Source: Methylobacterium sp. CB376 (GTDB lineage Bacteria; Pseudomonadota; Alphaproteobacteria; Rhizobiales; Beijerinckiaceae). From it: a DNA stretch of 64,000 nt. The position numbers and the translations under genes are program-made. The notes under the pieces were generated by a model. The model saw nothing but the letters and a program-made list of their open reading frames with translations. It was not told the origin of the DNA and ran no database searches. Shown one piece after another: positions 19,605 through 41,048 of this stretch (the stretch's first letter is position 1; every line of letters begins with the position of its first letter). Location: contig NZ_CP121648.1 in the NCBI RefSeq assembly GCF_029714205.1, forward strand, positions 5,467,001 to 5,531,000, in the 5' to 3' direction.

Positions 19605-19641
19605 GGCGACGCCCGCCGCGCGGCGGCCGCGGCCCGGGCGT

Positions 19642-19813
19642 CATCCGACATCCGGTTGATGGCTTCGCCATCTCCCATTTCGGCCATGCGGATGTCGGCT
19701 TCGCTCAGGCGCCGCGCGGGCTCGTGATCCGGTTGATGGCTTCGCCATCTCCGATTTCGGCCATGCGGATGTCGGCTTCGCTCAGGCGCCGCGCTCAGGC
19801 GCCGCGCAGGCGC
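19642..19813. repeat. Dispersed palindromic element, locus 1 (two units)
   Basis: Two units, the first with an outer stem CCGACATCCG (19645-19654) paired to CGGATGTCGG (19689-19698) around an inner hairpin GATGGC-TTC-GCCATC (19658-19672). It is followed by GCTTCGCTCAGGCGCCGCGC. A second unit repeats the inner hairpin at 19735-19749. The same architecture occurs at 25622-25730 and 39766-39874. All three loci lie between convergent genes. Confidence 0.8.
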
Positions 19814-19854
19814 GTGATCCGGGATCCGCGTCGATCAAGCGGATCCCGGATCAC
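19814..19854. terminator. Perfect 16-bp inverted repeat at the 3' end of the caspase gene
   Basis: Arms 19814-19829 and 19839-19854 are perfectly complementary with a 9-nt loop. The right arm includes the stop codon of the leftward caspase gene (19853-19851). The repeat sits at the end of palindromic locus 1 and can act as a bidirectional terminator for the convergent gene pair. Confidence 0.65.
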
Positions 19855-21290
19855 TCCTCGCCCACGCTCTCGCGCAGGCGCTGCAGCTGCGGGCGCAGCT
19901 CCTGGCAGCTGAGGTCGCGCGCGAAGCGGTCGATCGCCGGCACGTCGCGGCTGTTGCGCAGCTGGGCGAGGATCTGGGCCTCGCGCTCGCAGGCGCCCGG
20001 GGTCGCCCGCGCCGTGCTCGTCGTCAGCGGCTCGCCGGGGATCGGCGGGATCGGGTCGGGCAGAACGGAAGGCGGTGCGGGCGGACGCACCGCCTCGATC
20101 AGCCGGGCGAGCTGCGGGCGCAGCGCCTCGCAGGTGAATTCGCGCTCGAAGCGCAGCACTGCCTCCGGCGCGCGGGTCGCGCGCAGGCGGGCGAGGGTCT
20201 GGGCCTCGCGCTGGCAGGCCCCGTTGTGCTCGGCGCCGGGCGGGGAAGCGGCGGGGCCGGGCGCGACGGCGGCGGTCGCCGGGTCGGTGCCGACCGGCCG
20301 CGTCTGCGGGAGCGGCCGGCGGGCTGGCTCGCCGGCCGGCGGCGCGGCCGGGCTGCCCGTGAGCTTGGCCACCTGGGCGCGGGCCAGATCCGCGTAGAAG
20401 CCGGCCGGATGCGCGGCCAGGAAGGAGGACCACGCCTCCCGCGTGCCGACGCGCTCGGCGAATTCGTAGTCGCGCCGCATCTCCTTGGGGTCGCCCTCCG
20501 GGTCGGCGGCCCTGACGTCCGGCACCAGCGCCATGGTGGCGCCCCCGAGGGAGCCGTAGACGAAGGGCTCCTGCTTGCCGCCGGTGAGGCGCAGAACCTC
20601 GTCGCGGACCCGCCCGAAGGCGACCCGCACGTCGAGGCCCGGCGCCGCGAGGTGCTTGAGCATCGCCGTCGTGAAGGGGCTGTGGTCGCCGCCGCCGTCG
20701 TCGGCGACCGACCCGGCCTTGGCCGCGAAGGCCACGAGGGTGTCGCTGATCAGCGGGTCCACCTTGGCGAGGCCGTTCGCCACGCCCCGGATGCTCACCA
20801 TCCGCTGCATGCCGACGTTGAACGGGTTGTTGCGGCAGGCATCCAGGATGACGAGGCGCAGGCGCCGCGCCGGCTCGATCGCGCGGATCACCCGCTCCAG
20901 CGACAAACCCTCGTCCTCGACGTCGAAATCGGTCCGCAGGCGGGCATCGGTCGGGATCAGGTAGTTGACCCCCGCGACCTCGATGCCGTGGCCGGCGAAG
21001 AACACCACCGCAACGTCCGCGTCGCGGCTAGTCTGCATGAATTCCCGCACGGTGCGTTTCAGCTCGACCGTGCCGAGATCCTGCCTCAGGTCGACCGACT
21101 CGAAGCCCGCCCGGCGCAGCATCTCCGCCATGGCCGAGGCGTCGCGGCCCGGATTGGCGAGCACCGGCACGGAGCGGTAGGCGGAGTTCCCGATCACCAG
21201 GGCGACGCGCCGGTCGGCCGCCGAGGCCCCCGTCCCGGTCAGGAGGCATGCCGCCAGGATCAGGAGCGGTCCCAGTCTCCACCGCAACAT
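19851..21290 (-). CDS. Secreted caspase-family (peptidase C14) protein
   Basis: 479 residues from ATG 21290 with GGAGGCGAGG upstream; signal peptide ending TGASAAD. The caspase domain spans about residues 25-255: RRVALVIGNSAYRSVPVL, the catalytic His in VVFFAGHGIEVAGVNYLIP, and the catalytic Cys in LVILDACRNNPF. Both catalytic residues are present. After a Pro-rich linker the C-terminus carries two copies of a ~45-residue module (CQREAQTLARLR...CEALRPQLARL and CEREAQILAQLR...CQELRPQLQRL), each with two cysteines. Secreted caspase-like proteins of this type are common in Rhizobiales; targets are unknown. Confidence 0.88.
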   Translation of the reverse strand: MLRWRLGPLLILAACLLTGTGASAADRRVALVIGNSAYRSVPVLANPGRDASAMAEMLRRAGFESVDLRQDLGTVELKRTVREFMQTSRDADVAVVFFAGHGIEVAGVNYLIPTDARLRTDFDVEDEGLSLERVIRAIEPARRLRLVILDACRNNPFNVGMQRMVSIRGVANGLAKVDPLISDTLVAFAAKAGSVADDGGGDHSPFTTAMLKHLAAPGLDVRVAFGRVRDEVLRLTGGKQEPFVYGSLGGATMALVPDVRAADPEGDPKEMRRDYEFAERVGTREAWSSFLAAHPAGFYADLARAQVAKLTGSPAAPPAGEPARRPLPQTRPVGTDPATAAVAPGPAASPPGAEHNGACQREAQTLARLRATRAPEAVLRFEREFTCEALRPQLARLIEAVRPPAPPSVLPDPIPPIPGEPLTTSTARATPGACEREAQILAQLRNSRDVPAIDRFARDLSCQELRPQLQRLRESVGEE

Positions 21291-21430
21291 CCTCGCCTCC
21301 TCGCGGCGCTCCCGCGCGACGCGCTCCCCCGCTTCTCCGGGACGGGCCCGGCCCGATGGACGGTTCCCCGCCCCGATACCGCGACCCAGCATGCGCCGGT
21401 TGCGGCCATGAACGCAATCAACTGTGACGT

Positions 21431-21510
21431 GCTCAAGCCCGCTCCGGCCGGCGGCGGGCGCTCAAGCCCGCCCCGGGCGGCGGGCGCTCAAGCCCGCCGC
21501 CGGCCGGGAT
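21431..21510. repeat. Tandem repeat of ~26-29 bp, three units
   Basis: GCTCAAGCCCG recurs at 21431, 21460 and 21486, each followed by a GC-rich CCGGSCGGCGGG tract. It lies between the caspase gene and the small leftward gene, and covers the last codons and stop of the latter. Confidence 0.6.
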
Positions 21511-21613
21511 GCGGGATGATCCGCGCCGGGGCCGGCTGCGGCTCGACCGGCTTGTCGGGAAACCACATCTTCACCGTCGTCCCCGTGCGGGGGTCCAGGA
21601 TGGTGAGGGTCAT
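21488..21613 (-). CDS. Small protein of 41 residues
   Basis: Starts at ATG 21613 behind a strong ribosome binding site (AGAGGAGG). It reads MTLTILDPRTGTTVKMWFPD, then KPVEPQPAPARIIPHPG and a basic end. The opening is a short beta-hairpin-like segment, the rest a Pro-rich tail. Short proteins beginning MTLTI-DPRTG recur in Methylobacterium and Bradyrhizobium in my experience, so I take it as real. Function unknown. Confidence 0.55.
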   Translation of the reverse strand: MTLTILDPRTGTTVKMWFPDKPVEPQPAPARIIPHPGRRRA

Positions 21614-21691
21614 GGACGCCTCCTCTGTCGCTGATGCGGACCATTCCATCCCCCGGCCCGGGCGGATGTGATGGACCGCACCCGGGGCGCC

Positions 21692-22576
21692 TCAGCCGTA
21701 GCGGCCCCGCCGCGGCGCCCGCGCCCGGGGCGGCCGGCCCGAGGCGGTGACGAGGACGCGGATCGGCTTGGAATAGATCGGCGGATCGTGCGGGACGTGG
21801 TCCTCGTCGGCGAGCAGCAACTGCAGGGTGTGGCGGCCGAGCGGCAGCGTCACGCGCGCCTCGGTCTGGCCCGCGCCGAAATGCAGGTGGTTGAAATCGT
21901 TGGGAATCGGCCGGTCGAAGGGCGGCAGCGGCGTGTCGATGAGCAGGTGGTGGTGGCCCGTATTGGCCTTGACGATCCCGGCCGGCGCCACGCCCATGTT
22001 GATGAGACCGAACCGGACCAGGACGGTGCGCGGCACCGTGGCGCCGTTCACCGGGCTCGCGATGTAGACCTTGGCGCCCTTGGCCGAGGCCCGGCGCTGC
22101 CCCGGCGGTCTCGGCCCGGCCGCGACGCCGCCGGCGCCGCCCTCCCGCACCACCACCCGGATCTTCTCCGACATGATCGGGGGCGAATGCGCGATGTGCT
22201 TGTGGTCGCCGAGCAGGAGCTGCAGCGTGTGCTCGCCCGGAGGCAGGTTCAGCTCGGCCTCGGTCTGACCCGCGCCGAAATGCAGGTGGTTGAAGTCGTT
22301 GGGGATCGGCTCGGAGAGGTTCGGCAGGTCGGTATCGACCAGCAGGTGGTGGTGGCCGGCATTCTCCCGCGGCACGCCCGCCGGCGCCACGCCCATGCCG
22401 TGCAGGCCGAAATGGATCGTGGTCCGGGTCGGCAGCACGCTCCCGTCCTTGACGTCGACGAAGTAGACGCTCGCGCCGGCCGGCGCCGGGGAGGGTCCGC
22501 CCCGCGGCGCCTCCTGGGCGATGCCGGGGTGCGGCAGGAACAACAGCAGTGCCGGCAATAGCCTGGTGAGTCGCAT
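21692..22576 (-). CDS. Exported tandem DUF4399 protein
   Basis: 294 residues from ATG 22576 with GAGGAGAGG upstream; signal peptide ending HPGIAQ. It contains two DUF4399 domains (about residues 35-145 and 165-280). Each carries GHHHLLVDT or GHHHLLIDT, PIPNDFNHLHFGAGQTEA and an HTLQLLLGD or HTLQLLLAD strand. The two halves are highly similar, an internal duplication. The His clusters look able to bind metal. It lies between two caspase-like genes. DUF4399 proteins usually have one domain, so the tandem form is notable. Function unknown. Confidence 0.85.
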   Translation of the reverse strand: MRLTRLLPALLLFLPHPGIAQEAPRGGPSPAPAGASVYFVDVKDGSVLPTRTTIHFGLHGMGVAPAGVPRENAGHHHLLVDTDLPNLSEPIPNDFNHLHFGAGQTEAELNLPPGEHTLQLLLGDHKHIAHSPPIMSEKIRVVVREGGAGGVAAGPRPPGQRRASAKGAKVYIASPVNGATVPRTVLVRFGLINMGVAPAGIVKANTGHHHLLIDTPLPPFDRPIPNDFNHLHFGAGQTEARVTLPLGRHTLQLLLADEDHVPHDPPIYSKPIRVLVTASGRPPRARAPRRGRYG

Positions 22577-22791
22577 CGCCCTCTCCTCCGGGTCAGCCAC
22601 GACGCCGAAATGTCACCCAATAATCGGTCCCACGCAAAGCACAGTGCCTCTTTTTACTGCTCCTCGTTCAGTCGAGATGTGCTTTGATAAGCGGCAAAAT
22701 GCCGCAATCACAGTTTTTCCCTACCACGCCGGAGCGATTCGTTGTTGGCTGTGCTGCGGGTCGCGCGATGACCTGGGTGTGCGAGTCGAGC

Positions 22792-24399
22792 ATGGGACGG
22801 ACCGGACCGGCCGGTGCGGCGCTTGCGGCGGCGAGGAGCCTCGTCCTCCTCCTGTGCCTCGTCCTCGGGCCGGGACCGGCGGCGGCGCAGGGCCGCGCGG
22901 TGGTCCTCGAAGCGAGCCCGCGCATCGCTCTCGTCATCAGCAACTCGGCCTATTCGGGCGGGGGCGATCCCCTCGGGACCAACCGCTCCGCCCGCCTCGT
23001 CGCGGAGGAGCTGGACCGGCTCGGCTTCGTGGTGGAGGCCGGGGAGAATCTCACCAAGGCGCAGATGCAGCAGCGCGTCGCCGAGGTCGCGGCCCGGATC
23101 GGGCGCAGCTCCGTGGTGGTGTTCTTCTACAACGGCTACGCGATCCGCTCGGGCCAGCAGAATTTCCTGATCCCGGTCGGGGCCAGCGTGCGCTCCGAGG
23201 TTCAGGTGCGCCAGGAGGGGCTCGACCTCGACTCGATCCTCGCCGAGTTCACCCGCCGCGGGGCGGCGACCCGGATCGTCATCGTGGACGCGGCCCGGCG
23301 CAACCCGTTCGAGGAGACGTTCCGGCGCCCGCCCGAGGGCTTGGCGGCCCTCGACATGCGCGACGGCACGCTGGCGATCTTCAGCGCCGCCCTCGACAAG
23401 CCGCCGGAGGAGGCCGACGACGGCGGCCTGTTCGTGCGCGAGCTCCTGCGCCAGATCGCGGCCCCGGGCGTGAGCGCCGAGCAGGGCTTCGCGCGCACCC
23501 GGATGGCGGTGGCGCGGGCGACCGGGGCGCGGCGCGTGCCCTGGGTCTCCTCCTCCCTCCTCGACGACGTCTTCTTCGCGACGCCGGGCGCGGCGCCTCG
23601 CCCGCCGCCCGCCGGCCCGCCGCCGGTGGCCGAGGCGCCCTCCCCGCCCCCGGCCTCCGAGCGCGCGGCGGGCGAGGGGCCGAGGCCGGGCGAGACCTTC
23701 CGCGACTGCCCGACCTGCCCGGAACTCGTCGTGGTGCCGGCGGGCGACTTCGTGATGGGCGGGGACGCGGAGTACGAGAAGCCCGCCCACCGGGTGACGA
23801 TCCGGCGCCCCTTCGCGATCGGCCGGCACGAGGTGACCTTCGCGCAGTGGGATGCCTGCGTGGCCGCGGGCGGCTGCAAGGGCGACATCGACGACCACGG
23901 CTTCGGGCGCGGCGACCGACCGGTCATCGACGTGAGCTACGACGACGTGCAGGGCTACCTGCGCTGGCTGTCCGCGCAGACGCGCCGGACCTACCGCCTG
24001 CCGAGCGAGGCGGAGTGGGAATACGCGGCCCGCGCGGGCGCGACCTCGCCGTTCTGGTGGGGGCCGGCGGCGGGCAGCGGGCGGGCGAATTGCGAGGATT
24101 GCAGCCAGGCTCCGTCCCACCGCACCGTCGCGGTGGGCTCGTACCGCCCCAACGCCTTCGGGCTGTTCGACACCGCCGGCAACGCCGCCGAGTGGGTCGA
24201 GGATTGCTGGAACATGAGCTACCGGGGGGCGCCGACCGACGGCGCGGCGTGGCGCACGGGCCAGTGCGACCTGCGCGTCCTGCGCGGCGGCTCCTTCACG
24301 GCCCGCTCGGCGCTCCTGCGCTCGGGCTCGCGCTTCCGCTACGACCACGACATCCGCTACTACGCCAACGGGTTCCGGGTGGTGCGGGAGCTCCCCTGA
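22792..24399 (+). CDS. Caspase-fold protein lacking the catalytic dyad, fused to an FGE/SUMF1-like domain
   Basis: 535 residues from ATG 22792 (ATG 22768 also possible); signal peptide ending GPAAAQG. Residues ~40-260 have the caspase fold (RIALVISNSAYSGGGDPLG, QNFLIPVGASVRSEVQ, GTLAIFSAALDKPPEE). The His motif GHG is replaced by YNGYAIRSG, and the Cys in DAC-RNNPF is Ala (VIVDAARRNPFEE), so protease activity is lost. After a Pro-rich linker, residues ~330-535 form a formylglycine-generating-enzyme-like domain (PAGDFVMGGDAEYEKPAHRV, RLPSEAEWEYAARAGA, NAFGLFDTAGNAAEWVED, LRGGSFTARSALLRSGSRFR). The FGE catalytic Cys pair is absent. It is probably a binding or scaffold protein in the periplasm. 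Confidence 0.85.
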   Translation: MGRTGPAGAALAAARSLVLLLCLVLGPGPAAAQGRAVVLEASPRIALVISNSAYSGGGDPLGTNRSARLVAEELDRLGFVVEAGENLTKAQMQQRVAEVAARIGRSSVVVFFYNGYAIRSGQQNFLIPVGASVRSEVQVRQEGLDLDSILAEFTRRGAATRIVIVDAARRNPFEETFRRPPEGLAALDMRDGTLAIFSAALDKPPEEADDGGLFVRELLRQIAAPGVSAEQGFARTRMAVARATGARRVPWVSSSLLDDVFFATPGAAPRPPPAGPPPVAEAPSPPPASERAAGEGPRPGETFRDCPTCPELVVVPAGDFVMGGDAEYEKPAHRVTIRRPFAIGRHEVTFAQWDACVAAGGCKGDIDDHGFGRGDRPVIDVSYDDVQGYLRWLSAQTRRTYRLPSEAEWEYAARAGATSPFWWGPAAGSGRANCEDCSQAPSHRTVAVGSYRPNAFGLFDTAGNAAEWVEDCWNMSYRGAPTDGAAWRTGQCDLRVLRGGSFTARSALLRSGSRFRYDHDIRYYANGFRVVRELP

Positions 24400-24494
24400 T
24401 CCGCACCGGGCCGGGGCCGGCCTGCGCCACATCGCCCCTTGCGGCGGGCCGGGCGGCGGGGGATGGGCAGGCTTTCGTCCCCGAGGAGCCCCCG

Positions 24495-25625
24495 ATGTCC
24501 CCCGAATCCGCCGCCCCGTCGCCCGAGGAGGCCGTCGCCGCGATCAGCCGCTGGCTCTCGGTCGAGAGCCCGACCCACCACGCGGCCGGGGTCAACCGGA
24601 TGATGGACCTCGTCGCCGACGAGGCCGAGGCGACCGGCATCCCGTGGGAGCGGATCGGCGGCACGCAGGGCCTCGGCGACAGCCTGATCCTGCGGGCCGG
24701 GCCGCGGACCGGGGAGCCCGCCCTCCTGGTCCTGTCGCACCTCGACACGGTCCATCCGGTCGGCACCCTGGCGGAGCTGCCGGTGCGGGTCGAGGGCGAC
24801 CGGCTCTACGGGCCGGGCGTGTACGACATGAAGGGCGGGGCGTGGCTCTGCCTGCAGGGCTTCATCGCCGCGGCGAAGGGCGGGCAGGCCCGGCGGCCCC
24901 TCGTCTTCCTGTTCACGAGCGACGAGGAGATCGGCTCGCCGACGACCCGCGGGCTGATCGAGGATCTGGGGCGGCGGGCCGAGGCGGTGCTGGTGACCGA
25001 GCCCGGCCGGGACGGCGGCCGGGTGGTCACGGGCCGCAAGGGCGTCGGGCGCTTCGACATCCACGTGGAGGGGCGCCCCGCCCATGCCGGTAGCCGCCAC
25101 GCGGAGGGGCGCAACGCGATCCGCGAGGCCGCCCGGCTGATCCTGGAGATCGAGGCCCTGACCGACTACGCGCGCGGCATCACCACCACGGTCGGGCTGG
25201 TCCAGGGCGGCACCGCCGAGAACGTGGTGCCGCAGCATTGCCGCTTCACCGCGGACCTGCGGGTGGTGACGGAGGAGGACGGGCGGGCCTGCGTGGCGCG
25301 CCTCCGCGGCCTGCAGGCCGCGCCCGACTTCACCGTGACGGTGACCGGCGGCATGAACCGCCCGCCCTATCCGCGCTCGGACCTGACCGGCCGGCTCTTC
25401 GCGCAGGCGCGCGCCATCGCCGAGCAGGAGCTCGGCCTCGCCCTCGGCGAGGTGCCGCTGACGGGCGGCGGCTCGGACGGGAACTTCACGGCGGCGCTCG
25501 GCGTGCCGACCCTCGACGGCCTCGGCATCGACGGGGACGGCGCCCACACGCTGTGGGAGTACGGCCTGATCTCCTCCATCGCGCCGCGGCGGCGGCTGAT
25601 GCAGCGGATGCTGGAGACGCTGTGA
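24495..25625 (+). CDS. M20 family metallopeptidase (CPG2-like)
   Basis: 376 residues from ATG 24495 with GAGGAG upstream, no signal peptide. Zinc ligands and catalytic acids are present: the His in LLVLSHLDTVHPVG, the Asp in GPGVYDMKGG, the Glu pair in LFTSDEEIGSP, the acid in VLVTEPGRDGG and the His near DGDGAHT. The dimerisation domain follows RKGVGRFDIHVEGRPAHAGS. Family members hydrolyse C-terminal glutamate or other N-acyl amino acids or dipeptides. The stop codon overlaps the dispersed palindromic element at 25622. Confidence 0.88.
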   Translation: MSPESAAPSPEEAVAAISRWLSVESPTHHAAGVNRMMDLVADEAEATGIPWERIGGTQGLGDSLILRAGPRTGEPALLVLSHLDTVHPVGTLAELPVRVEGDRLYGPGVYDMKGGAWLCLQGFIAAAKGGQARRPLVFLFTSDEEIGSPTTRGLIEDLGRRAEAVLVTEPGRDGGRVVTGRKGVGRFDIHVEGRPAHAGSRHAEGRNAIREAARLILEIEALTDYARGITTTVGLVQGGTAENVVPQHCRFTADLRVVTEEDGRACVARLRGLQAAPDFTVTVTGGMNRPPYPRSDLTGRLFAQARAIAEQELGLALGEVPLTGGGSDGNFTAALGVPTLDGLGIDGDGAHTLWEYGLISSIAPRRRLMQRMLETL

Positions 25626-25730
25626 TCCGAAATCCGACGGATTGCGTCGCAATGCGGATTTCGGCTTCGCTCAAGCGCCGCGCCGGCTCGTGATCCGACG
25701 GATTGCGTCGCAATGCGGATTTGGCGCAGC
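25622..25730. repeat. Dispersed palindromic element, locus 2 (two units)
   Basis: The outer stem CCGAAATCCG (25627-25636) pairs with CGGATTTCGG (25655-25664). The inner hairpin is ATTGCG-T-CGCAAT (25641-25653). CTTCGCTCAAGCGCCGCGCC follows, then a second unit with the same inner hairpin at 25702-25714. Compared with locus 1, the stem base A pairs with T here and C with G there, so pairing is conserved. Located between convergent M20 peptidase and HD-GYP genes. Confidence 0.8.
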
Positions 25731-25780
25731 CCGCGCCCCGTCCGGGCCCCCTCGGGGTCCGGGAACGAAGGGCCGGGCCG

Positions 25781-26827
25781 TCACGCCGCCCGCGTCGCCG
25801 GCCGGTCCTCCACGAGGGCGACCACCTCGTCCCAGCGCGACAGGAAGGCCCGCACGCAGGCCGGGTCGAAATGCCGGCCCGCCTCCTCCTCCAGGAAGGA
25901 CCGGGCCCGGTCGAGCGGCCAGCCCGGCTTGTAGACCCGGTCCGAGATCAGCGCGTCGAACACGTCCGCCACCGCGGTGATGCGGCCCGGCAGCGGGATC
26001 GCCTCGCCTTTCAGGCCGCGCGGGTAGCCGGTCCCGTCCCAGCGCTCGTGGTGGGTCAGCGCGATCTCGGCGGCGAGGCGCAGGAGCCGGGACGGGCTGT
26101 CGCTCAGCATCCGGTAGCCGCGCAGGGCGTGCTCCATCATCTCGACCCGCTCGGCCTCGCTCAGGGGCCCGGGCTTGCGCAGGATCGCGTCCGCCACCCC
26201 GATCTTGCCGATGTCGTGCATGGTCGAGGCCAGCGCGATGTCGTTCGCCTCCTCCTCCGGGAGGCCGAGCCCGTCCGCGATGGCGATGACGCAGCCGGCC
26301 ACCCGGGTGAGGTGGCCGCCCGCCTGATCGTCCCGGTACTCCGCCGCCAGCATCAGGCGGTGGATGATCTCCCGCTCCCGCTGGGCGCTCTGCGCGTGCA
26401 CCCGCCGCATCTCGCGGGCGAGGTCCTCCGCCTCCGCGGCGCCCGCCTGGGCCCGGGACAGGGCGACGAGGTTGCGGGCGCGGATCTGCAGGTCGAACCC
26501 GTCGAGGGGCGGCAGCACCACGTCGGTGGCGCCCGCTTCGAGGGCGCGCCGCCGCGCCGCGCCCGGCTCGCCGCTGCCCAGCACCATCAGGGAGGTGCGC
26601 ACGAGGTGCGGCAGGCGGCGCAGGTCGCGCACGAGGCCGATCGCGTCGAGGCGGGGCCCGTCCTCGATCAGCACGAGGTCGGTGCCCTGATCCGCCAGGG
26701 CGCTGCGGGCGGCCTCGGCCTCGCCGAGGACCAGGGTGGCGTAGGCGGGGGCGAAGAGGCGCGAGAGCTGCGCCGGATCCGGCCGTGCCGTGACGATGAC
26801 GACGGAGGGGTCCGCGGCGGAAGTCAT
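25781..26827 (-). CDS. HD-GYP domain phosphodiesterase with degenerate receiver
   Basis: 348 residues from ATG 26827. Residues ~8-125 fold as a response-regulator receiver, but the phospho-acceptor position reads LVLIEDGP (Glu where Asp is expected). A coiled linker precedes an HD-GYP domain with STMHDIGKIGVAD and LTHHERWDGTGYPRGL, the complete metal and c-di-GMP signature, and ADVFDALISDRVYK. It should hydrolyse cyclic di-GMP. The Glu could mimic constant phosphorylation. A monocistronic leftward gene. Confidence 0.9.
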   Translation of the reverse strand: MTSAADPSVVIVTARPDPAQLSRLFAPAYATLVLGEAEAARSALADQGTDLVLIEDGPRLDAIGLVRDLRRLPHLVRTSLMVLGSGEPGAARRRALEAGATDVVLPPLDGFDLQIRARNLVALSRAQAGAAEAEDLAREMRRVHAQSAQREREIIHRLMLAAEYRDDQAGGHLTRVAGCVIAIADGLGLPEEEANDIALASTMHDIGKIGVADAILRKPGPLSEAERVEMMEHALRGYRMLSDSPSRLLRLAAEIALTHHERWDGTGYPRGLKGEAIPLPGRITAVADVFDALISDRVYKPGWPLDRARSFLEEEAGRHFDPACVRAFLSRWDEVVALVEDRPATRAA

Positions 26828-26924
26828 GGCGTGTCTGGGATCCCGTGCCGGGCCGTCGGGTGCGGCGGCATCAGCGAAATGTCGCCGAGTTTGCTGAAGC
26901 GATCTTTAAAGCATGTTTTGGCGG

Positions 26925-27413
26925 TCAGATGGCGAAATCGCTGCCGCTGGGCAGGTCCGGGAAGATCCTGGCCGCCTCGGCCCGTCGGCAGAGCTCCTCC
27001 ACCGTCACCGCGTCGAGGGTCGCGAGGAAGGCCTGCCCGGCCGCCGCGAGGAGCGGGTCGATCAGCCCCGCCGCCGGCGCCGGCCTGCCCGCCTCGCCGT
27101 CGCCGAGGGCCAGCACCGCCCTGGCGATGTCGCCGACGCGGATGCGGCGGCGCTCGCGGGCGAGTTCGTAGCCGCCATGCGGGCCGCGCAGGCCCTTGAG
27201 CAGCCCGTGCCGGACCAGGGCCTGCAGCACCGTCTCGAGGTGGCGCGGGGGCAGGCCGTGGCGGGCCGCGAGGGCCCGGGCGCTGACCGCCTGCGGCCGG
27301 GCGTGGAGCGCGATGTCGATCACCGCCGCCACCGCGAGCGCGAGGCGCGGGGGCGCCAGCGCCGGCGGGGCCGCGCCGGCGGGCTCCTGCGGGCTGGTCG
27401 AGGCCTCCCCCAT
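26925..27413 (-). CDS. Rrf2-family transcriptional regulator
   Basis: 162 residues from ATG 27413. The winged helix occupies residues ~25-90 (RLALAVAAVIDIALHARPQA, LPPRHLETVLQALVRHGLLK, GLRGPHGGYELARERRRI) and matches Rrf2/IscR/NsrR proteins. The three-Cys Fe-S motif of IscR or NsrR is absent; only one Cys (VEELCRRAEAA) is present. It therefore senses something other than a classic cluster, or acts redox-independently. It ends at 26925 and starts 7 nt after dut. Confidence 0.85.
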   Translation of the reverse strand: MGEASTSPQEPAGAAPPALAPPRLALAVAAVIDIALHARPQAVSARALAARHGLPPRHLETVLQALVRHGLLKGLRGPHGGYELARERRRIRVGDIARAVLALGDGEAGRPAPAAGLIDPLLAAAGQAFLATLDAVTVEELCRRAEAARIFPDLPSGSDFAI

Positions 27414-27420
27414 CGCGCCC

Positions 27421-27909
27421 TCAGTGCCGCCCCGTCGAGCCGAACCCGCTCTCCCCCCGCGCCGCCGCCTCGCCCGAGAAGGTCTCGACGAGGCGCAGGG
27501 CCGGCCGGGTCACCCGGGTGAAGACGAGCTGCGCCACGCGCTCCCCCGGCGCGATGGTGAGCGGCCGGGACGCGCCCGGCGGGTTGCGGTTCCAGAGCGA
27601 GAGCATCAGGGGCCCCTCGTAATCGGCGTCGATCACCCCGACCGTGTTGCCGAGGACGAGCCCCTCCCGGTGGCCGAGCCCCGAGCGGGGACAGACCAGG
27701 CCGCACCAGCCGGGATCGCGGATCGCCACCGCGAATCCGGCCGGCACCAGGACCGGGGCGGCCTGCGGGGCGAGCGTCAGGGGCGCGTCCAGGCAGGCGT
27801 GCAGGTCGAGCCCCGCCGCCTGCGCCGAGCCCCAGCGCGGGAACCCCCACCCGGAGAGCCGCGGATCGAGGAGGCGGATCTCGACCGCGAGGTCGTCGGG
27901 CCCGGTCAT
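27421..27909 (-). CDS. dut: dUTP diphosphatase
   Basis: 162 residues from ATG 27909. All five trimeric dUTPase motifs are visible: AGLDLHACLDAPL, VCPRSGLGHREGL, GVIDADYEGPLML, GERVAQLVF and the mobile C-terminal GESGFGSTGRH. It cleaves dUTP to dUMP and pyrophosphate, keeping uracil out of DNA and feeding thymidylate synthesis. The N-terminal extension upstream of this ATG is low in quality. It precedes the Rrf2 gene on the same strand, 7 nt apart. Confidence 0.95.
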   Translation of the reverse strand: MTGPDDLAVEIRLLDPRLSGWGFPRWGSAQAAGLDLHACLDAPLTLAPQAAPVLVPAGFAVAIRDPGWCGLVCPRSGLGHREGLVLGNTVGVIDADYEGPLMLSLWNRNPPGASRPLTIAPGERVAQLVFTRVTRPALRLVETFSGEAAARGESGFGSTGRH

Positions 27910-28141
27910 GCGCCGCCCCGCCACCGCATTCCGCCCCGGTGCCGCGGTCGGGCGCATCGGCCGGAGGGCAGGTCGGGCATGGGCGAGCCTCGCGCTGGCA
28001 TCGCCCGGCGGCGCGCCGGATCCGGCGCGGACGATGCGGTCAGGTATCCGGTGATGGGCGCGGCCCGGCCGGGCCGCCCCGCGGCGCCCTTATGCCCCGG
28101 CCGCGCGCCCGCGGCTACACCCCCGGGAGGGGGAGCCGGCC

Positions 28142-28792: not shown

Positions 28793-28834
28793 CCGCTCAC
28801 CGCTCCCGCAGCGCGGCCGCGCCATAGCACGGTT

Positions 28835-28848
28835 TGTGAAATTTCACA
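28835..28848. promoter_or_regulatory. Candidate GntR operator
   Basis: TGTGAAATTTCACA is a perfect 14-bp palindrome in the 129-nt gap between the divergent GntR regulator and the transporter gene. GntR-family operators are short palindromes in exactly this place. It lies 43 nt from the regulator start and 74 nt from the transporter start. Confidence 0.6.
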
Positions 28849-28921
28849 GGCATGCTAATTGCGAGGCCAAGCGCCGATCGGCCCCGTCCGGGCGGGGGGA
28901 GAAGAGCGCGGGAGAAGTGCG

Positions 28922-30238: not shown

Positions 30239-30249
30239 GGAACCCCGCG

Positions 30250-30930: not shown

Positions 30931-30950
30931 GGCGGCGGGAGCGGCAGGGG

Positions 30951-31759
30951 ATGCTCGCCGGGGCGGAGATCGTCGCCACCGCCGCCAAGATGGCGGCGAG
31001 CGCGGCCGTGGTGGTGGTCGCCGCCCGGGCGGTCGAGCGCGCCGGGCCCCTCGTGGCGGCGATGATCGCGACGCTGCCGCTCTCGGCCGGGCCCGCCTAC
31101 CTGTTCCTCGCCCTGGAGCACGGGCCGGATTTCCTGCGCGCGAGCGCCGTCGCCAGCCTGCCGGCCATCGCGGCGACCGGGATCCTGATCGTGGTCTACG
31201 CCGCCCTGGCCCGCCGCGGCGGGCTCGCCCTCAGTCTCGGGGCGGGGCTCCTGGCCTGGGGCGCGGCCGCCACGGCCCTGCGCCAGCTCGCGCCCGGCCT
31301 CGCCCCGGCGGCCGGCCTCGCCGCCCTGGCGCTCCTCGCCTGCATGGCGGCGGGGCGGGCGATCCGCCCCGCCCGGCCGGTGCCGCGGCGGCCCGGACGG
31401 CCCCGCGACGTGGCGATCCGGGCCGGGATCGTCATGGGCCTCGTCGGCCTCGTGCTGCTGGCCGGCCGGGTGGCGGGCCCGGGCCTCGCCGGTCTGCTGG
31501 CGCTGGCCCCGGTCGTGATGGTGAGCCTCGCGCTGATCCTGCATCCGCGCCTCGGCGGGGAGGCGAGCGCCGGCGTGCTGGTCCTCGGCCTGCCCGGACT
31601 CCTCGGCTTCGTGGCGGCCCTCACGATCCTCGCCCTGACGGTGGAGCGCCTGGGGGCGGCCTTCGGCCTGACGCTGGCGCTCCTCGTGACCCTCGCCTGG
31701 AACGGGGGCATCCTGCTCCTGAACCGCCTCTGGCCCTCTCGCCCCTCGGAGACCGTCCC

Positions 31760-31763
<4 letters not shown>
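30951..31763 (+). CDS. Integral membrane protein of unknown function
   Basis: 270 residues from ATG 30951 with GGCAGGGG upstream. Almost the whole chain is hydrophobic, with about 8 membrane segments ([57 protein letters not shown]). A polar loop ([19 protein letters not shown]) separates two halves, hinting at a duplicated four-helix unit. It is embedded in the transporter-amidase operon, and its stop overlaps the amidase start by 4 nt. It could be a permease or accessory protein. I do not recognise the family. Confidence 0.75.
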
Positions 31764-34301
<2,538 letters not shown>

Positions 34302-34447
34302 CCGGTGAAACCGGGGCCGGAGGCCATCCCCCCTTGGGTCGCCCCGGCCCGCTCGTCTTGAGACGGCGTTAATCAACCTGCGCGATGGTGCGGCGGACTG
34401 AGAACTACCCGCCCGCGCCCCGGACGGGCCATCGCGCAGGGGACGTC

Positions 34448-35350
34448 ATGCACATCGTCGTCGTCGATCCGAGCCGGGTCGTGCTGAAGGTGATCGGCGG
34501 GCTGCTCGACCCGCGCGGCCACACCGTGAACACCTTCACGGATTCGCGCGAGGCGCTCGACTACGTGACCGCCAACGAAGCCGTCACGGCGCTGATCACC
34601 AGCCTGGAGGTGCGGCCGCTGACCGGGCTCGAACTGTGCTGGTCGGCCCGCCTGCTGGCGGAGGCGCACCGCCCCCTCTACATCATCGCGATGTCCTCGG
34701 CCCGCAACGCCCGCAACCTCGCCGAGGTGCTCGACAGCGGCGCCGACGACTTCATCGACAAGCCCCCGGGCGGCGAGGAGCTCTACGCCCGGCTGCGGGC
34801 CGCCGAGCGCGTGACCCGGATGCAGCGCGAGCTGATCCGCCTCGCCGAGACCGACTCGCTCACGGAACTCCTGAACCGCCGCGCCTTCGTGCAGCGGGTG
34901 GCCGAGATCGCCGGGCGCGCGGGCAACCATGGCAAGCTCGCCCTCGTCGTCGCGGACATCGACAATTTCAAGCGCATCAACGACGAGCACGGCCACGCCC
35001 TCGGCGACGTCGCCATCCAGGGCGTGGCGACCGCCCTCTCGGAGGTGCCGGACTCGCTCGTCGGGCGCCTCGGCGGCGAGGAATTCGGCGTCGCCCTCCC
35101 GGGCCGGAGCCTGGAGGAGGCCGAGGCCATCGCCAACCGCCTGCGGCTGCGCTGCACGCAGCTGCGCTTCAAGGGCCGGCACGGCCCGGTCCAGCTCAGC
35201 TGCAGCTTCGGGGTGAGCGCGTGGTCGGAGGGCGAGACGATCGAGGGCCTGCACAAGCGGGCCGACATTGCCCTCTACGAGGCGAAGGCGACCGGGCGCA
35301 ACCGCGTGGTCTCCGCCTTCACGGACCTCGTCCTCGCCCGCGCGGGCTGA
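34448..35350 (+). CDS. GGDEF diguanylate cyclase with atypical receiver
   Basis: 300 residues from ATG 34448 with AGGGGA upstream. Residues 1-120 fold as a receiver (HIVVVDPSRVVLKVIGGLLD, DDFIDKPPGGEELYARLR), but the phospho-acceptor site reads ALITSLEV, Ser where Asp belongs. Residues ~135-295 are a GGDEF domain (DSLTELLNRRAFVQRVAEIA, VADIDNFKRINDEHGHALGD, GRLGGEEFGVALPGRS); GGEEF is an active variant. It should make cyclic di-GMP, with input other than classic phosphorylation. Confidence 0.9.
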   Translation: MHIVVVDPSRVVLKVIGGLLDPRGHTVNTFTDSREALDYVTANEAVTALITSLEVRPLTGLELCWSARLLAEAHRPLYIIAMSSARNARNLAEVLDSGADDFIDKPPGGEELYARLRAAERVTRMQRELIRLAETDSLTELLNRRAFVQRVAEIAGRAGNHGKLALVVADIDNFKRINDEHGHALGDVAIQGVATALSEVPDSLVGRLGGEEFGVALPGRSLEEAEAIANRLRLRCTQLRFKGRHGPVQLSCSFGVSAWSEGETIEGLHKRADIALYEAKATGRNRVVSAFTDLVLARAG

Positions 35351-35653
35351 GGCCCCTCGGTAAACGCCCACGATAGCGCCGCCCCCCGGTGAGCGCCTAT
35401 CGAGGGCGCGGTCACCGCCCGTCCGTTCCGAACTGGCACAGGTGCCGGGCGCCCATCCCGGAACGTTCCCGCATGCGAGCCCGACTTCGCCGGACAGAAC
35501 CGGCCTCGCGGGTCGCGCGTAAACCATAGCAACCGACAATTTCCCTTGAGTCTCCGTGCGGCGCGGTCCGCCGCGCCGCGGTTGGAACGCCGCTTGATCA
35601 TCACACTCCGTCAACCAGGCGCGTGTGCCGCGCCGAGACGGAGGCAGAACGGC
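35351..35653. other. 303-bp intergenic region
   Basis: Spacer between the GGDEF gene and the LuxR-type regulator. A hairpin CGGCGCGG-TCCG-CCGCGCCG lies near 35558-35577. TTGGAACGCCGCTTGATC at about 35582 resembles both a sigma-54 site (TTGG-N10-GM) and the GGAAC half of the alphaproteobacterial general stress promoter. Neither match is complete. No gene seen. Confidence 0.45.
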
Positions 35654-36346
35654 ATGAGTGACGCCGTGAATGTGCTGATCATCGACGAGCCGCCGGATCT
35701 CGGGGCGGCCTTCCGCGCAACGCTGGAACATCATCCCGAGCTTCGGACGCTGGATGAATCCGGCCTGCGCGCGGGCTCCGGGGGCCTGCTGCTCGACGGC
35801 GTCGCCCTCGTCTTCTCCGCGCGGAGCGCGAGCGCCGTCGCGGCGCTGCGGGAGCGCCACCCGCGCCTGAAGGTGCTGGTCGCCTTCCTGGCCGCCGACG
35901 CGGCGACCCTGACCCAGCTCGCCGCGTCGGGCGCCGACGCCTTCGTGGCGCGCTCGGCCTCGCCGCGGGAGATCTGCGCCGCGATCCTGGCCCTCGCCCA
36001 CGGCATGCCGCTCGGCGGCGCGGTCCCGGAGGCGGTCGGGACCGAGGAGGTGGCCGCGAGCCTCGGCCTCACCCCCCGGGAGGCCGAGGTGCTGCGCTTC
36101 CTCAGCGCCGGGTTCAGCAACAAGGAGGTGGCGCGCCGCCTCACCGTGAGCGTGCGCACCGTCGAGACGCATCGCCTCAACCTGCGCCGCAAGACCAAGA
36201 CCGGGCGGCTCAAGGACCTCGTCCAGCTCGCCCGGCAGATGGGCCTCGCGCCGGTGATCGACACCGAGCCGTCGAGCCATCGGCCGGCCGTGGCGGGCCG
36301 CAGCGCGCGCCACGGCAGCTCGTCCCACGCGGCGGCCCCCCATTGA
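35654..36346 (+). CDS. LuxR-type response regulator with degenerate receiver
   Basis: 230 residues from ATG 35654 with GGAGGCAGAAC upstream. The first ~125 residues follow the receiver pattern (VLIIDEPPDLGAAFRATLEH, FVARSASPREICAAILALAH), but the phospho-acceptor strand reads VALVFSARSAS, with no Asp. The C-terminal HTH (LTPREAEVLRFLSAGFSNKE, VARRLTVSVRTVETHRLNLR) is a canonical NarL/FixJ DNA-binding domain. The tail is His/Ser/Ala-rich. It is likely a transcription factor regulated without phosphotransfer. Confidence 0.85.
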   Translation: MSDAVNVLIIDEPPDLGAAFRATLEHHPELRTLDESGLRAGSGGLLLDGVALVFSARSASAVAALRERHPRLKVLVAFLAADAATLTQLAASGADAFVARSASPREICAAILALAHGMPLGGAVPEAVGTEEVAASLGLTPREAEVLRFLSAGFSNKEVARRLTVSVRTVETHRLNLRRKTKTGRLKDLVQLARQMGLAPVIDTEPSSHRPAVAGRSARHGSSSHAAAPH

Positions 36347-36380
36347 GGCGGGGCCGCCGCGGAATGGCCGGAGCGGCCCG

Positions 36381-37550
36381 TCAGGCCGCCCGGCGGGCAG
36401 CCGCGCGGGTCCTGCCCGCTCCCTTGCGACTCCTCTGCGCCGCGGGCCCCTCGGCGGGCGCGTCCGCCGCCAGCCGCCCCTGGAGCAGAGCCAGCACGGC
36501 GGTCTCCTCCGGCCGCAGCCGGTGGATGTCCTCCCGCAGCTCCGCCTCGATCTCGTCGCGCGCCCGCAGCAGGAAGCTCCCTTCGAGGTAGGAGCCGAGG
36601 ATCTCCGGGTGGATGTAGCACTTGCGGCAGATCGTCGGCGTGTTGCCGAGCCGCTCGGCCACCCGCTCGATGGCGCTGCGCACGTTGCGCTTGGCCGCCG
36701 CCTGGCTGTCGAAGGTCTCGAATTCCCGCAGCGCCAGGGCCGCCAGCACCGTGCCCGACCAGGTGCGGAAATCCTTGGCGGTGATGTCCCGGCCGGTGAT
36801 CTCCCGCAGGTAGGCGTTGACGTCGGCCGAGGTCACGTCGCGCTGCACCCCGTCCTCGTCGAGGTACTGGAACAGCTCCTGGCCCGGCAGGTCCTGGCAG
36901 GCCTTCACGATCTTGGCCACGCGCCGGTCGCGCAGGGCCAGCTGCCAGACCTTGCCGCTCTTGCCCTTGAAGCGGAATTTCAGCTCCGCGCCCTCGACGT
37001 TCACGTGCGGGTCGCGCAGGGTCGTGAGCCCGAAGGAGCGGTTGGCGCGGGCGTAATCGTCGTTCCCGACCCGGATCAGCGTGGTCTCCAGCAGGTGGAC
37101 CACCGTGGCGAGCACCTTCTCCCGCGGCAGGCCCCGCCGGCCCATATCCTCCTGCACCCGCGCCCGCAGGGCCGGCAGCGCCCGCGCGAAGTCCATCATG
37201 TGGGCGAACTTGGTCGAGTCCCGCGCCTCCCGGAACTGCGGATGGTAGCGGTACTGCTTGCGGCCGCGATCGTCCCGCCCCGTCGCCTGGATGTGCCCGT
37301 TGGGATGCCGGCAGATCCAGACATCCGTGTAGGCCGGCGGGATCGCCAGGGCCCTGATGCGCTTGAGCACCGCCTCGTCGCGGACCGGCCGGCCGTCCGG
37401 GTCGATGTAGCGGAAGCCGCGCCCGTTGCGCTTGCGGCGATAGCCGGGCTCCTCGTCGCTGACGTAGCGCAGCCCGATCTCGCGGGCGGCCTCGCGCGGG
37501 TCGGCGCGACCCTCCGGCGCGGACGGCGCGGTCTCGGGATCCGACGGCAT
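36381..37550 (-). CDS. DNA topoisomerase IB
   Basis: 389 residues from ATG 37550. The poxvirus-like bacterial type IB enzyme is recognised by LRYVSDEEPGYRRKRNGRGF, ALAIPPAYTDVWICRHPNGH, FARALPALRARVQEDM, TLIRVGNDDYARANRSFGLT, FRTWSGTVLAALAL and the tyrosine in RKCYIHPEILGSYLEG. It relaxes supercoils through a 3'-phosphotyrosine. The C-terminus is an Arg/Ala-rich tail of about 30 residues. It stands alone between two gene groups. Confidence 0.93.
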   Translation of the reverse strand: MPSDPETAPSAPEGRADPREAAREIGLRYVSDEEPGYRRKRNGRGFRYIDPDGRPVRDEAVLKRIRALAIPPAYTDVWICRHPNGHIQATGRDDRGRKQYRYHPQFREARDSTKFAHMMDFARALPALRARVQEDMGRRGLPREKVLATVVHLLETTLIRVGNDDYARANRSFGLTTLRDPHVNVEGAELKFRFKGKSGKVWQLALRDRRVAKIVKACQDLPGQELFQYLDEDGVQRDVTSADVNAYLREITGRDITAKDFRTWSGTVLAALALREFETFDSQAAAKRNVRSAIERVAERLGNTPTICRKCYIHPEILGSYLEGSFLLRARDEIEAELREDIHRLRPEETAVLALLQGRLAADAPAEGPAAQRSRKGAGRTRAAARRAA

Positions 37551-37777
37551 GCGGGGCCTCGCTCGGCAGGACGCAACGGGTGGATGCTCAACCGTGGCGT
37601 GCCGCGGCGGGTTCCTGCGGCGGGATGGTCGGGGCGGGCAGGATGCCGCCGCAGCCTCGCGGCGACCCGCCGCGCGCCGGCGCGCGGGCGAGGCGTCCCG
37701 TCCGACCTTCCGGCCCGCCGGCGGTTTCCCCCGGCGGTCCTCCGGGTTAGGGAGGCGGGCGAGAGCAGGAGAGCCGC

Positions 37778-38917
37778 GTGACCGCAGCCGAAGGCCAGAA
37801 GACCATCGCGTTCGTCGTCACGGAGGATTGGTTCTTCGCCTCGCACTTCCTGCCCATGGCCCGGGCCGCCGTCGCGGCCGGGCACCGGGTCGCGGTGGTG
37901 ACGCGGGTGCGCGACCATCGCGGCGCGATCGAGGCCGCGGGCGCCCAGGTGGTGGCCCTGGAGGCCGAGCGGTCGAGCCTGAACCCGATGAGCGCGGGCT
38001 ACGCCGCAGGCCAGCTCGCCGCGCTGCTGAAGGCCCTGCGGGCCGACCTCGTGCACTGCGTCGCGCTGCGCGGCATCCTGGTGGGCGGCGCCGCCGCCGC
38101 CCTCGCCGGCATCCCCCGGCGCGTCTACGCGCTCACCGGGCTCGGCCTCCTGGGCGCCCGGCAGGACCGCGCCGCGCGCCTCGCCCGGGGGGCGCTGCGC
38201 CACCTGATCCGCGGGCCGCTGGAGACCCGGGCGACCCGCTACCTCGTGGAGAATCCCGACGACGCGGCGCTCCTCGGCCTCGACCCGGCCGAGAGCCGCG
38301 TCACCCTGGTGGGCGGCGCCGGGGTCGATCCGCGGGCCTTCGCGCCGACGCCGCTGCCGCCCCTGCCGCCCCTGCGGGTCGCCCTCGTCGCCCGCATGCT
38401 GTGGTCGAAGGGCGTCGACACCGCCGTGGAGGCCGTGCGCCTCGCCCGCGCCGGCGGCGCGCCGGTCGAACTCGCCCTCTACGGGGCGCCCGACCCCTCG
38501 AACCGCCGGGCGATCCCGGAGGCGACCCTGCGGGGCTGGGCCGGCGACGGCGTGGCGTGGCACGGGCCGACCGCGGACGCGGCCGGCGCCTACGCGGCCG
38601 CGCAGGTCGGCTGCCTGCCCTCCCGCGGCGGCGAGGGCCTGCCCCGCACCCTGCTCGAAGCCGCCTCCTGCGGCCGGGCCATCGTCACCACGGACGTGCC
38701 GGGCTGCCGCACCCTCGTGCGCGACGGGATCGAGGGCCGGCTCGTCCCGCCGGACGACCCCGCCGCCCTCGCGGCCGCCCTGGCGCGCCTCGCCGCCGAC
38801 CCGGCGCGGGTCGCCGCCATGGGCGAGGCCGCGCGCCGGCGCATCCTCGAGGGCGGCTTCACCGAGGAGGCGGTGGCCTCGGCGGTCGCCCGCCTCCACG
38901 CCGCGATGCTCGCGTGA
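37778..38917 (+). CDS. Group 1 (GT4-like) glycosyltransferase
   Basis: 379 residues from GTG 37778 with CAGGAGAG upstream. N-terminal Rossmann domain (KTIAFVVTEDWFFASHFLPM, AGHRVAVVTRVRDHRGAIEA, DLVHCVALRGILVGGAAAAL) and C-terminal donor domain (VALVARMLWSKGVDTAVEA, GCLPSRGGEGLPRTLLEAAS, CGRAIVTTDVPGCRTLV). The E-x7-E motif in the latter is retained. This is the arrangement of GT4 enzymes that build polysaccharide or lipid-linked glycans. It is coupled to a methyltransferase gene by a 4-nt overlap. Confidence 0.88.
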   Translation: MTAAEGQKTIAFVVTEDWFFASHFLPMARAAVAAGHRVAVVTRVRDHRGAIEAAGAQVVALEAERSSLNPMSAGYAAGQLAALLKALRADLVHCVALRGILVGGAAAALAGIPRRVYALTGLGLLGARQDRAARLARGALRHLIRGPLETRATRYLVENPDDAALLGLDPAESRVTLVGGAGVDPRAFAPTPLPPLPPLRVALVARMLWSKGVDTAVEAVRLARAGGAPVELALYGAPDPSNRRAIPEATLRGWAGDGVAWHGPTADAAGAYAAAQVGCLPSRGGEGLPRTLLEAASCGRAIVTTDVPGCRTLVRDGIEGRLVPPDDPAALAAALARLAADPARVAAMGEAARRRILEGGFTEEAVASAVARLHAAMLA

Positions 38918-39612
38918 CGCCGCGCCCCGTCCCGGATCCGGAGGCGTCCGCCCTGCGCGAGCCGCTGCGCTTCATCCGGGCCAACACCGCCCTGCGGCCG
39001 GTGCCGCACGCGCCGGAGATCCGCCTCCACGTCGCCGACGAGGCCACGGAGCTGTGGAGCCGCACCGAGGAGGAGCTGGGCGAGATCGGCCTGCCCCCGC
39101 CCTTCTGGGCCTTCGCCTGGGCGGGGGGCCAGGGGCTTGCCCGCTACGTCCTCGATCACCCCGAGACGGTGCGGGGCGCCCGGGTGCTCGACTTCGCCTC
39201 CGGCTCCGGCCTCGTCTCCATCGCGGCCGCGCGCGCGGCCGCCGCCGCCGTCGAGGCGAGCGACCTCGATCCCTTCGCGCTGGCGGCGATCGGCCTCAAC
39301 GCCGCCGAGAACGGCGTCGCCGACCGGGTCCGGGCCGTCGCCGGCGACCTCATCGGCCGCGACGAGGGCTGGGACTGCGTGCTCGCCGCCGACATCTTCT
39401 ACGAGCGCGACCTCGCGGCCCGGGTCGGCGACTGGCTCGCCGCCCTGCAGGCGAGGGGGGCCCGCGTCCTCCTGGGGGATCCGGGCCGGGCCTACCTGCC
39501 GGCGGCGCGGCTCGACAGGCTCGCCACCTACGCGGTGCCGGTGAGCCGCGCCCTGGAGGATGCCGAGATCAAGCGCACCGGGGTGTGGCGCTTCGCGCCG
39601 GACGGCGCCTGA
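38914..39612 (+). CDS. Class I SAM-dependent methyltransferase (ETFB-lysine/METTL20-like)
   Basis: 232 residues from GTG 38914, overlapping the glycosyltransferase stop (GTGA). SAM motif I is [20 protein letters not shown], followed by [20 protein letters not shown] and [16 protein letters not shown]. The pre-domain ([40 protein letters not shown]) is typical of the METTL20-like protein-lysine methyltransferases, which in Agrobacterium methylate the electron-transfer flavoprotein beta subunit. The target here is inferred. A strong hairpin follows at 39615-39641. Confidence 0.82.
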
Positions 39613-39614
39613 CG

Positions 39615-39641
39615 CCGACGGCCGTGTCCGTCGGCCGTCGG
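39615..39641 (+). terminator. Hairpin after the methyltransferase gene
   Basis: CCGACGGCCG (39615-39624) pairs perfectly with CGGCCGTCGG (39632-39641) around a 7-nt loop, 3 nt after the stop codon. No U tract follows, as is usual in this GC range. Confidence 0.55.
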
Positions 39642-39765
39642 CTCCGGTCTCGAATCGCCGCCAAGGTGAACGTGTCTCGCCGAGCCGATGGCTCGTGTCG
39701 CGCATGCGAGAGGGCCGACGGCCCGGTGCGTCGACATCCGGGGCCGTCGGGACGAGGCGAGTCAT

Positions 39766-39874
39766 TCGACATCCGACGGATTGCGTCGCCATGCGGATGT
39801 CGGCTGCGCTCAGGCGCCGCGCTCGGGCGCCGCGCGGGCTCGTGATCCGGGATCCGCTGCGATCAACCGGATCA
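39766..39874. repeat. Dispersed palindromic element, locus 3
   Basis: The outer stem CGACATCCG (39767-39775) pairs with CGGATGTCG (39794-39802). The inner arm is ATTGCG-T-CGCCAT. GCTCAGGCGCCGCGC follows, then GTGATCCGG pairing with CCGGATCAC at the end (39842-39874). The last TCA is the stop of the leftward patatin gene. It is related to loci at 19642 and 25622 and again lies between convergent genes. Confidence 0.8.
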
Positions 39875-41032: not shown

Positions 41033-41048
41033 GGCCTGCCACCGATTG

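Follow-up and report, generated by a model that had tools for sequence, protein, structure and literature searches.

A stretch of 64,000 nucleotides from Methylobacterium sp. CB376 (RefSeq assembly GCF_029714205.1, contig NZ_CP121648.1, positions 5,467,001 to 5,531,000; called the window here, at its full length) contains three structured palindromic repeats, at 19642-19854, 25622-25730 and 39766-39874, each between two convergent genes. What kind of element is this, how does it spread, and why does it sit at the ends of genes? An earlier note, made from the letters of the window, had proposed a structure under selection that serves as terminator, messenger RNA (mRNA) stabiliser or repetitive extragenic palindrome (REP) spread by a RAYT-type transposase. 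We found that the three loci lie where that note had placed them and are genuine copies of one repeat family. The fold is maintained by matched mutations across species, the location rule is the stop codon rather than the convergent orientation, and whole units are gained and lost between strains. The explanation we prefer, with a little better than even confidence, is a non-coding element resembling REPs and miniature inverted-repeat transposable elements (MITEs), best developed in Methylobacterium, mobilised in trans, settling at TGA/TCA and accumulating at gene 3' ends.

The element is a double-hairpin DNA repeat with the order hairpin I, tail (GGCTTCGCTCARGCGCCGCGC) and hairpin II. Read in the orientation of the earlier note, a full copy consists of triplet, hairpin I, tail GGCTTCGCTCARGCGCCGCGCGGGCT, hairpin II and triplet, and the triplets are mostly TCA or TGA. 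Hairpin I has an outer stem, for example CCGACATCCG/CGGATGTCGG, enclosing an inner hairpin; the tail is 21-26 nt long and nearly invariant, including in the cross-species alignment A3 described below; and the longer hairpin II, which had not been listed before, has a stem of about 17 bp, for example GTGATCCGGGATCCGCTT...AAGCGGATCCCGGATCAC. Both arms show similar ends, TCCG(A/G)NATCC, and many copies carry extra hairpin and tail units or extra 13-nt tail pieces. The tail matched the window five times at up to 3 mismatches against 0.13 expected, and the genome (G000, a 7.64 Mb chromosome; conspecific with Methylobacterium sp. WSM2598) 452 times at up to 2 mismatches against 0 for the reversed control, or 383 times at up to 1 mismatch. 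In a scan of this genome with a covariance model of 30 copies, all of the 150 candidates to which scoring was limited matched. Being a short palindromic repeat, extragenic, located at 3' ends and present in more than 100 copies, it is REP-like in the broad sense, and we rate it as a variant of the REP idea that was not previously described as far as the literature was searched. Solo hairpins that lack a tail and stand between two equal triplets, TCA or TGA, were also present (L167:13359, L167:16842, L175:34, L240:19924 and L192:8089), and one hairpin may be the smallest mobile unit.

Gene context was examined in the window and in 99 evenly spaced stretches of 20 kb (stretch L223, inside the window, was dropped), 2.04 Mb in total, with genes predicted by our own finder trained on third-position GC. 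This sample held 163 tail matches at up to 3 mismatches in 113 clusters, including 106 intergenic ones (55 convergent, 45 codirectional and 6 divergent), five at the edge of a stretch and two within a predicted gene. The location between convergent genes only, as first described, is thus correct for the three window loci but not genome-wide. Divergent and coding positions are nevertheless not occupied equally often: divergent gaps make up 30% of the intergenic bases (133,603, against 79,070 convergent and 226,377 codirectional) and hold only those six clusters. A replication-strand bias was also considered, as the genome listing looked nearly all + at 0.6-5.6 Mb, and was rejected because no trend was visible in the systematic sample (61 +, 72 -).

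What most clusters share is the stop codon. A predicted stop is abutted by 74 of the 106 intergenic clusters, with the right end at an antisense stop in 59 and the left end at a sense stop in 20, while the background, taken from TSA triplets in gaps of 60-600 bp that lack the element, is 20% stops (codirectional) or 31% (convergent). TGA accounts for 77 of the 79 abutted stops, whereas its share among predicted stops overall is 85.1% (p = 7e-4). The best copies from other genomes (n = 28) abut an antisense stop in 18 cases and are located in 14 convergent, 13 codirectional and one divergent gap. The stop codon is itself part of the fold: at least two of its three bases are paired in the hairpin II stem in 49 of the 59 right-abutting cases, against 118 of 400 control genes, and the mean fold energy from the stop codon is -27.5 kcal/mol in these 59 cases against -15.5 in 400 sampled element-free TGA genes.

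The fold was evaluated in alignment A3, composed of the best copy from each of 27 other genomes, two window copies and one orthologue from genome G030 (30 copies; L368 was excluded). Paired cells reached 95.3% against 80.4% when shuffled, and 113 cells were double-changed against 34.7 +/- 4.3, with double changes in 15 of 27 pairs; slid controls gave at most 29 such cells and at most 42.9% pairing. Alignment A1, of 30 own-genome copies, gave a covariation score of 0.259 against a shuffled mean of 0.079, and most of the covariation within the genome is held by hairpin II. In its type C2 (25 distinct copies) 89.6% of cells paired and 34 were double-changed, the maxima over 1000 shuffles being 84.7% and 22; in type C1 (41 copies) 86.6% paired and 16 were double-changed, the corresponding maxima being 86.0% and 12. 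The idea that the structure is kept by selection, or by correction, is supported by strong covariation. Two details of the original description need amendment. The exchange of A-T for C-G in the outer stem exists in the window copies and across species (A-U 11, U-A 9, C-G 7, G-C 1 and unpaired 2 in a mainly cross-species alignment of 30 rows), but it is never A-U among 30 own-genome copies, of which 22 have C-G here and 8 a broken pair. The inner hairpins differ in sequence yet pair in general, but that of the third locus, ATTGCG-T-CGCCAT, has one mismatch and is no perfect version of that of the second.

The two ends of the copies bear on how the element inserts. Both end triplets could be read in 79 of the 113 clusters and were equal in 62: left/right combinations were TCA/TCA 54, TGA/TGA 8, TCA/TGA 4, TGA/TCA 1, and another left triplet in 12. 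When both ends are required to be TGA or TCA, 67 clusters are left, 62 of them with equal and 5 with unequal ends (Fisher p = 6e-7; p = 0.003 and 0.005 within the two hairpin-II types). A stricter parse, which read 47 of the 113 clusters, gave TCA/TCA 35, TGA/TGA 3, unequal TGA/TCA pairs 3 and six other combinations (Fisher 0.0036), and TCA..TCA was found in all 26 copies with both ends parsed among the 28 from other genomes. Because a paired-end structure would predict TGA/TCA, the agreeing triplets point to a short direct duplication; a 3-bp duplication of the target TSA at insertion is supported by these sequences, though not proven. Checked for features of a MITE, the element has similar arm ends and mostly equal triplets, without a clean pair of empty and filled alleles.

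The family is patchily distributed. The tail at up to 1 mismatch occurred 364 times in WSM2598 and 0-117 times in the other genus genomes, with at least one match in 60 of 111; a draw across the order gave a match in 9 of 397 genomes, five of them outside the genus with one each. The covariance model at E<=1e-4, with at most 31 candidates scored per genome, matched 71 of the 111 genus genomes (own included) and left 40 without a match; since the model finds more genomes than the tail, the tail search understates the family. Five of 60 genomes in a family sample had model matches, namely the own genome, a further one from the genus and three from outside it (3 of 57); among these three, G508 had 15 matches and the others one each, and a second genome of the genus of G508 had none. 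A degenerate full copy, judged by eye, lies at 7363 of L129, a Beijerinckiaceae metagenome-assembled genome. Xanthobacter L057, Azospirillum L112 and Phenylobacterium L146 were rejected as members, having by eye the tail without both hairpins, which we took as chance. A plasmid or phage origin was likewise rejected, one query locus giving one short plasmid match (46 bp, M. currus) and no phage match.

The own genome was compared with WSM2598 in 48 alignments, partly overlapping, with 408,748 aligned columns. At the elements the two differed by hairpin and tail units of 62-138 nt, a tail-only stretch of 63 nt, four pieces of 13 nt (52 nt) and a single whole copy, which in WSM2598 is flanked by TCA..TCA where the own genome has a single TCA. 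Empty sites were found too: the site at 25622 is empty in G030, with flanks 85% and 88-89% identical, and that at 39766 is empty in G010. The M. oryzihabitans orthologue of the gene at L191 has the same TGA end without a tail-bearing copy, and its right flank could not be aligned.

Three side observations concern the modular build of the copies. The 13-nt piece TCAGGCGCCGCGC behaves like a minisatellite: at L198 the own genome exceeds WSM2598 by four copies (L320 against L198:18700). It also occurs at 19795-19807 and 39823-39835 of the window. Hairpin types unlike their neighbours appear or vanish between tails across strains (L114 against L166:650; L032 against L243:4313), as if the tails were recombination sites that swap hairpin modules. 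Two copies of G030, L337:4113-4285 (-) and L338:1687-1818 (-), have a different, longer tail with a further GC-rich hairpin, so they were missed by the tail motif search.

According to the explanation we prefer, copies would multiply by transposition in trans and would insert at the triplet TGA/TCA, apparently with the 3-bp duplication; genes would survive the event because the stop codon stays in place after insertion at TGA. Judged from the distribution, selection would remove insertions elsewhere, so that copies would accumulate in convergent gaps and behind genes at their 3' ends. Hairpin II, beginning at the stop codon, is predicted to give the mRNA a strong stem right where the coding region ends. 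There it could, by analogy with E. coli REPs, slow termination or block 3' decay, and it may affect convergent read-through; a role as mRNA stabiliser is possible. Units are gained and lost between strains, probably by recombination between the repeated tails, and the stems drift with compensation.

Several points weigh against this explanation. A Y1_Tnp search of the genome and a view by eye of the solo hairpins in the 2.04 Mb sample gave no transposase and no autonomous partner. No clean insertion polymorphism with both flanks intact was found, as the right flank is also altered at the whole-copy site of WSM2598, and the right flank at L191/L092 does not align. Within the species most sites are shared: sixteen own clusters could be projected on WSM2598 loci, which had been preselected for holding the motif, and all gaps there were of similar or unit-different length. 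G030 has TAG, not TGA, as the stop at its empty site corresponding to 25622, and a pre-existing TGA is not evident there; and for one of the three window sites G030, too, has a copy at the same stop codon. No predicted stop is abutted by 32 of the 106 clusters, our gene prediction has a coding fraction of 0.75 and split at least one long open reading frame (ORF) in two, and this explanation does not account for the 59 to 20 preference for hairpin II at the stop. The triplet evidence is also limited: the agreement depends on the middle base, because the parse leaves T and A almost no freedom; another left triplet stands in 12 of the 79 clusters, some perhaps misread, which brings the total that disagree to 17 of 79; and some solo palindromic hairpins have unequal ends (TGA..TCA at L183:18101 and L205:8306, TGA..TCG at L178:9402). 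The TCA..TCA of other species could be part of the element itself, since the right TCA pairs inside hairpin II and most copies behind the model carry TCA.

The strongest alternative puts a conserved RNA function first: the copies would be a selected module of the 3' untranslated region (3'-UTR), acting as a barrier to exonucleases, an insulator of convergent transcription or a modulator of translation termination, retained and gained anew where genes end, with slow and incidental mobility. The strong cross-species covariation, the nearly invariant tail, the avoidance of divergent gaps and the stop codon held in the stem all agree with it. Two window sites add to this. At 19642 a copy also stands against the same stop codon in G030, where the right gene is a 77% match and the stems are changed but paired. 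The gap at 39766 is occupied in both genomes in opposite orientations, each hairpin II against a TGA stop, in G030 that of the other gene (frame read by eye). Yet the left neighbour at 19642 is not the same gene in G030, tail counts range from 0 to 383 among the genus genomes, only 55 of 282 sampled convergent gaps hold a tail-bearing cluster, and the genus genomes without a model match, together with the empty site at 25622, argue against an essential role. We consider this alternative possible but rather doubtful.

A bidirectional intrinsic terminator between convergent genes is a good deal less probable. The strong stems at gene ends would suit it, as would the convergent share of the stop-abutting clusters (43 of 74, against 349 of 916 TGA stops bordering gaps of at least 30 bp). 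But a terminator-like site was not found at 19600-19900, and the U-tract is missing: in all 59 cases the gene strand has no more than one T within the 8 nt that follow hairpin II, and the other strand no more than four, which speaks against the ordinary intrinsic terminator proposed before. A U-less or Rho-assisted stop is possible.

Structure could also be kept without selection if template switching during replication made one palindromic arm match the other, the covariation then being mutational. Near-perfect palindromes with frequent paired changes do occur beside imperfect ones, but this process accounts neither for a tail that hardly varies nor for the constant distance to the stop or the agreeing end triplets, and we regard it as very unlikely. 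Least credible is the classical REP/REPIN mobilised by a RAYT that the species lost recently. In its favour are the tandem units outside genes, which resemble REPs in size and copy number, and a Y1_Tnp (Pfam PF01797) match in 15 of 111 genus genomes. Against it, such a match is absent from the two richest genomes, the own one (at E<=0.1) and WSM2598, and occurs in 1 of 11 genus genomes with at least 30 tail copies (own included) against 14 of 100 others; moreover, Y1 transposases are not known to make a 3-bp duplication.

The three window copies differ in completeness. They lie between predicted convergent gene ends at 19604 (+) and 19851 (-), 25625 (+) and 25781 (-), and 39612 (+) and 39872 (-), and all their parts given below are on the + strand except the left TCA triplets of copies 1 and 3, which are unstranded. 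Copy 1 starts with the flanking triplet TCA (19641..19643, from sequence and triplet statistics), followed by hairpin I (19644..19698; CCGACATCCG ... CGGATGTCGG, inner GATGGC-TTC-GCCATC), the first tail GGCTTCGCTCAGGCGCCGCGC (19697..19717), a second hairpin and tail unit (19725..19794, tail 19774-19794), an extra 13-nt tail repeat TCAGGCGCCGCGC (19795..19807), whose number varies between strains at another site, and hairpin II (19815..19853). Copy 2 starts at the TGA stop (25623..25625) of the + strand ORF 22521..25625 and comprises hairpin I (25626..25664; CCGAAATCCG ... CGGATTTCGG), a tail (25663..25683) and a truncated second unit (25691..25723); it has no hairpin II. Copy 3 consists of the left triplet TCA (39762..39764), hairpin I (39765..39803, inner hairpin with one mismatch), a tail with one mismatch (GGCTGCGCTC, 39802..39822), an extra 13-nt tail repeat (39823..39835) and a shortened hairpin II (39843..39874). 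An element end does fall on a stop codon at each locus, as had been noticed: besides the TGA of copy 2, the terminal TCA at 19851-19853 is the TGA stop of the - strand gene 19851..21392, and the TCA at 39872-39874 is the stop of the - strand gene 39872..41215. Fold energy z was strong for the whole of locus 1 (-4.65), moderate for its first unit (-1.89) and for locus 3 (-2.19), and unconvincing for locus 2 (-0.05). An 18-nt tandem repeat (unit like CGAAGCGGGACTTGGGCC) at 44942-45065 of the window is unrelated to the hairpin element.

MITE-like bacterial repeats such as ERIC, Correia/NEMIS and RUP are non-autonomous, about 100-130 bp long, have terminal inverted repeats and a short target duplication, and use a TA target. 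The element resembles them in size and would likewise be non-autonomous, with similar ends on both arms and a probable short target duplication, but its apparent target is TGA/TCA, its internal stems covary strongly and no parental insertion sequence was found among the solo hairpins viewed. With the REP/BIME/REPIN repeats of E. coli and Pseudomonas (GTAG superfamily) it shares many short extragenic palindromes, the 3'-end location in convergent or codirectional gaps and tandem higher-order arrays. REPs near 3' ends between such genes, and REP termini that supply stop codons, are already known (PMC3733652); GTAG ends can yield TAG (PMC3733652; PMC3116915). Unlike these, the present element lacks a RAYT match, has two unequal hairpins joined by a conserved tail, and abuts TGA exactly, with the stop in the stem and mostly agreeing end triplets; no conserved GTAG end was seen when the ends were read by eye. 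The CGTC REPs are, like it, mainly alphaproteobacterial, near 3' ends and without a known dedicated transposase, with stems of 8-9 bp beginning AT, loops of 4-5 nt, a CGTC tag and mostly a CCA tail (PMC3733652). These features were not seen in the element, by eye against that text description, and Methylobacterium is not mentioned in the main text of the paper.

Br-REP1 and Br-REP2 of Bradyrhizobium are also 3'-UTR repeats, comparable by description rather than sequence; Br-REP1 was found in overlapping 3'-UTRs of convergent genes, according to PMC5082802, the main text of which does not mention Methylobacterium. Ribosome stalling by E. coli REPs within 15 nt of the stop codon is cited in PMC12306157 and PMC5082802. 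Rfam 15 gave 0 matches at the gathering score over the whole window, and at permissive E-values sub-threshold matches alone (one own locus; 10 of 28 loci of other genomes). Among the matches listed in our literature search, which covered subscription journals in part, no description of the element was recognised. The available parts of two Methylobacterium genome papers report a MITE of roughly 400 bp and palindromes at islands (PMC2680597) and clustered regularly interspaced short palindromic repeats (PMC4161386), and the element was not seen in them.

A more specific and only tentative idea is that of an element homing to stop codons: its machinery would recognise and duplicate TGA/TCA, insertion would recreate the stop, and hairpin II, with the stop codon drawn into its stem, would brake translation termination in hundreds of genes. 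If true, selfish DNA would here use stop codons as safe landing sites, and the genomes would offer a natural experiment, with many genes that carry a stem on the stop codon and orthologues that do not, addressing the effects of REP-like hairpins on termination, mRNA decay and convergent transcription. The family would also serve as a test case for alphaproteobacterial repeats without a known transposase.

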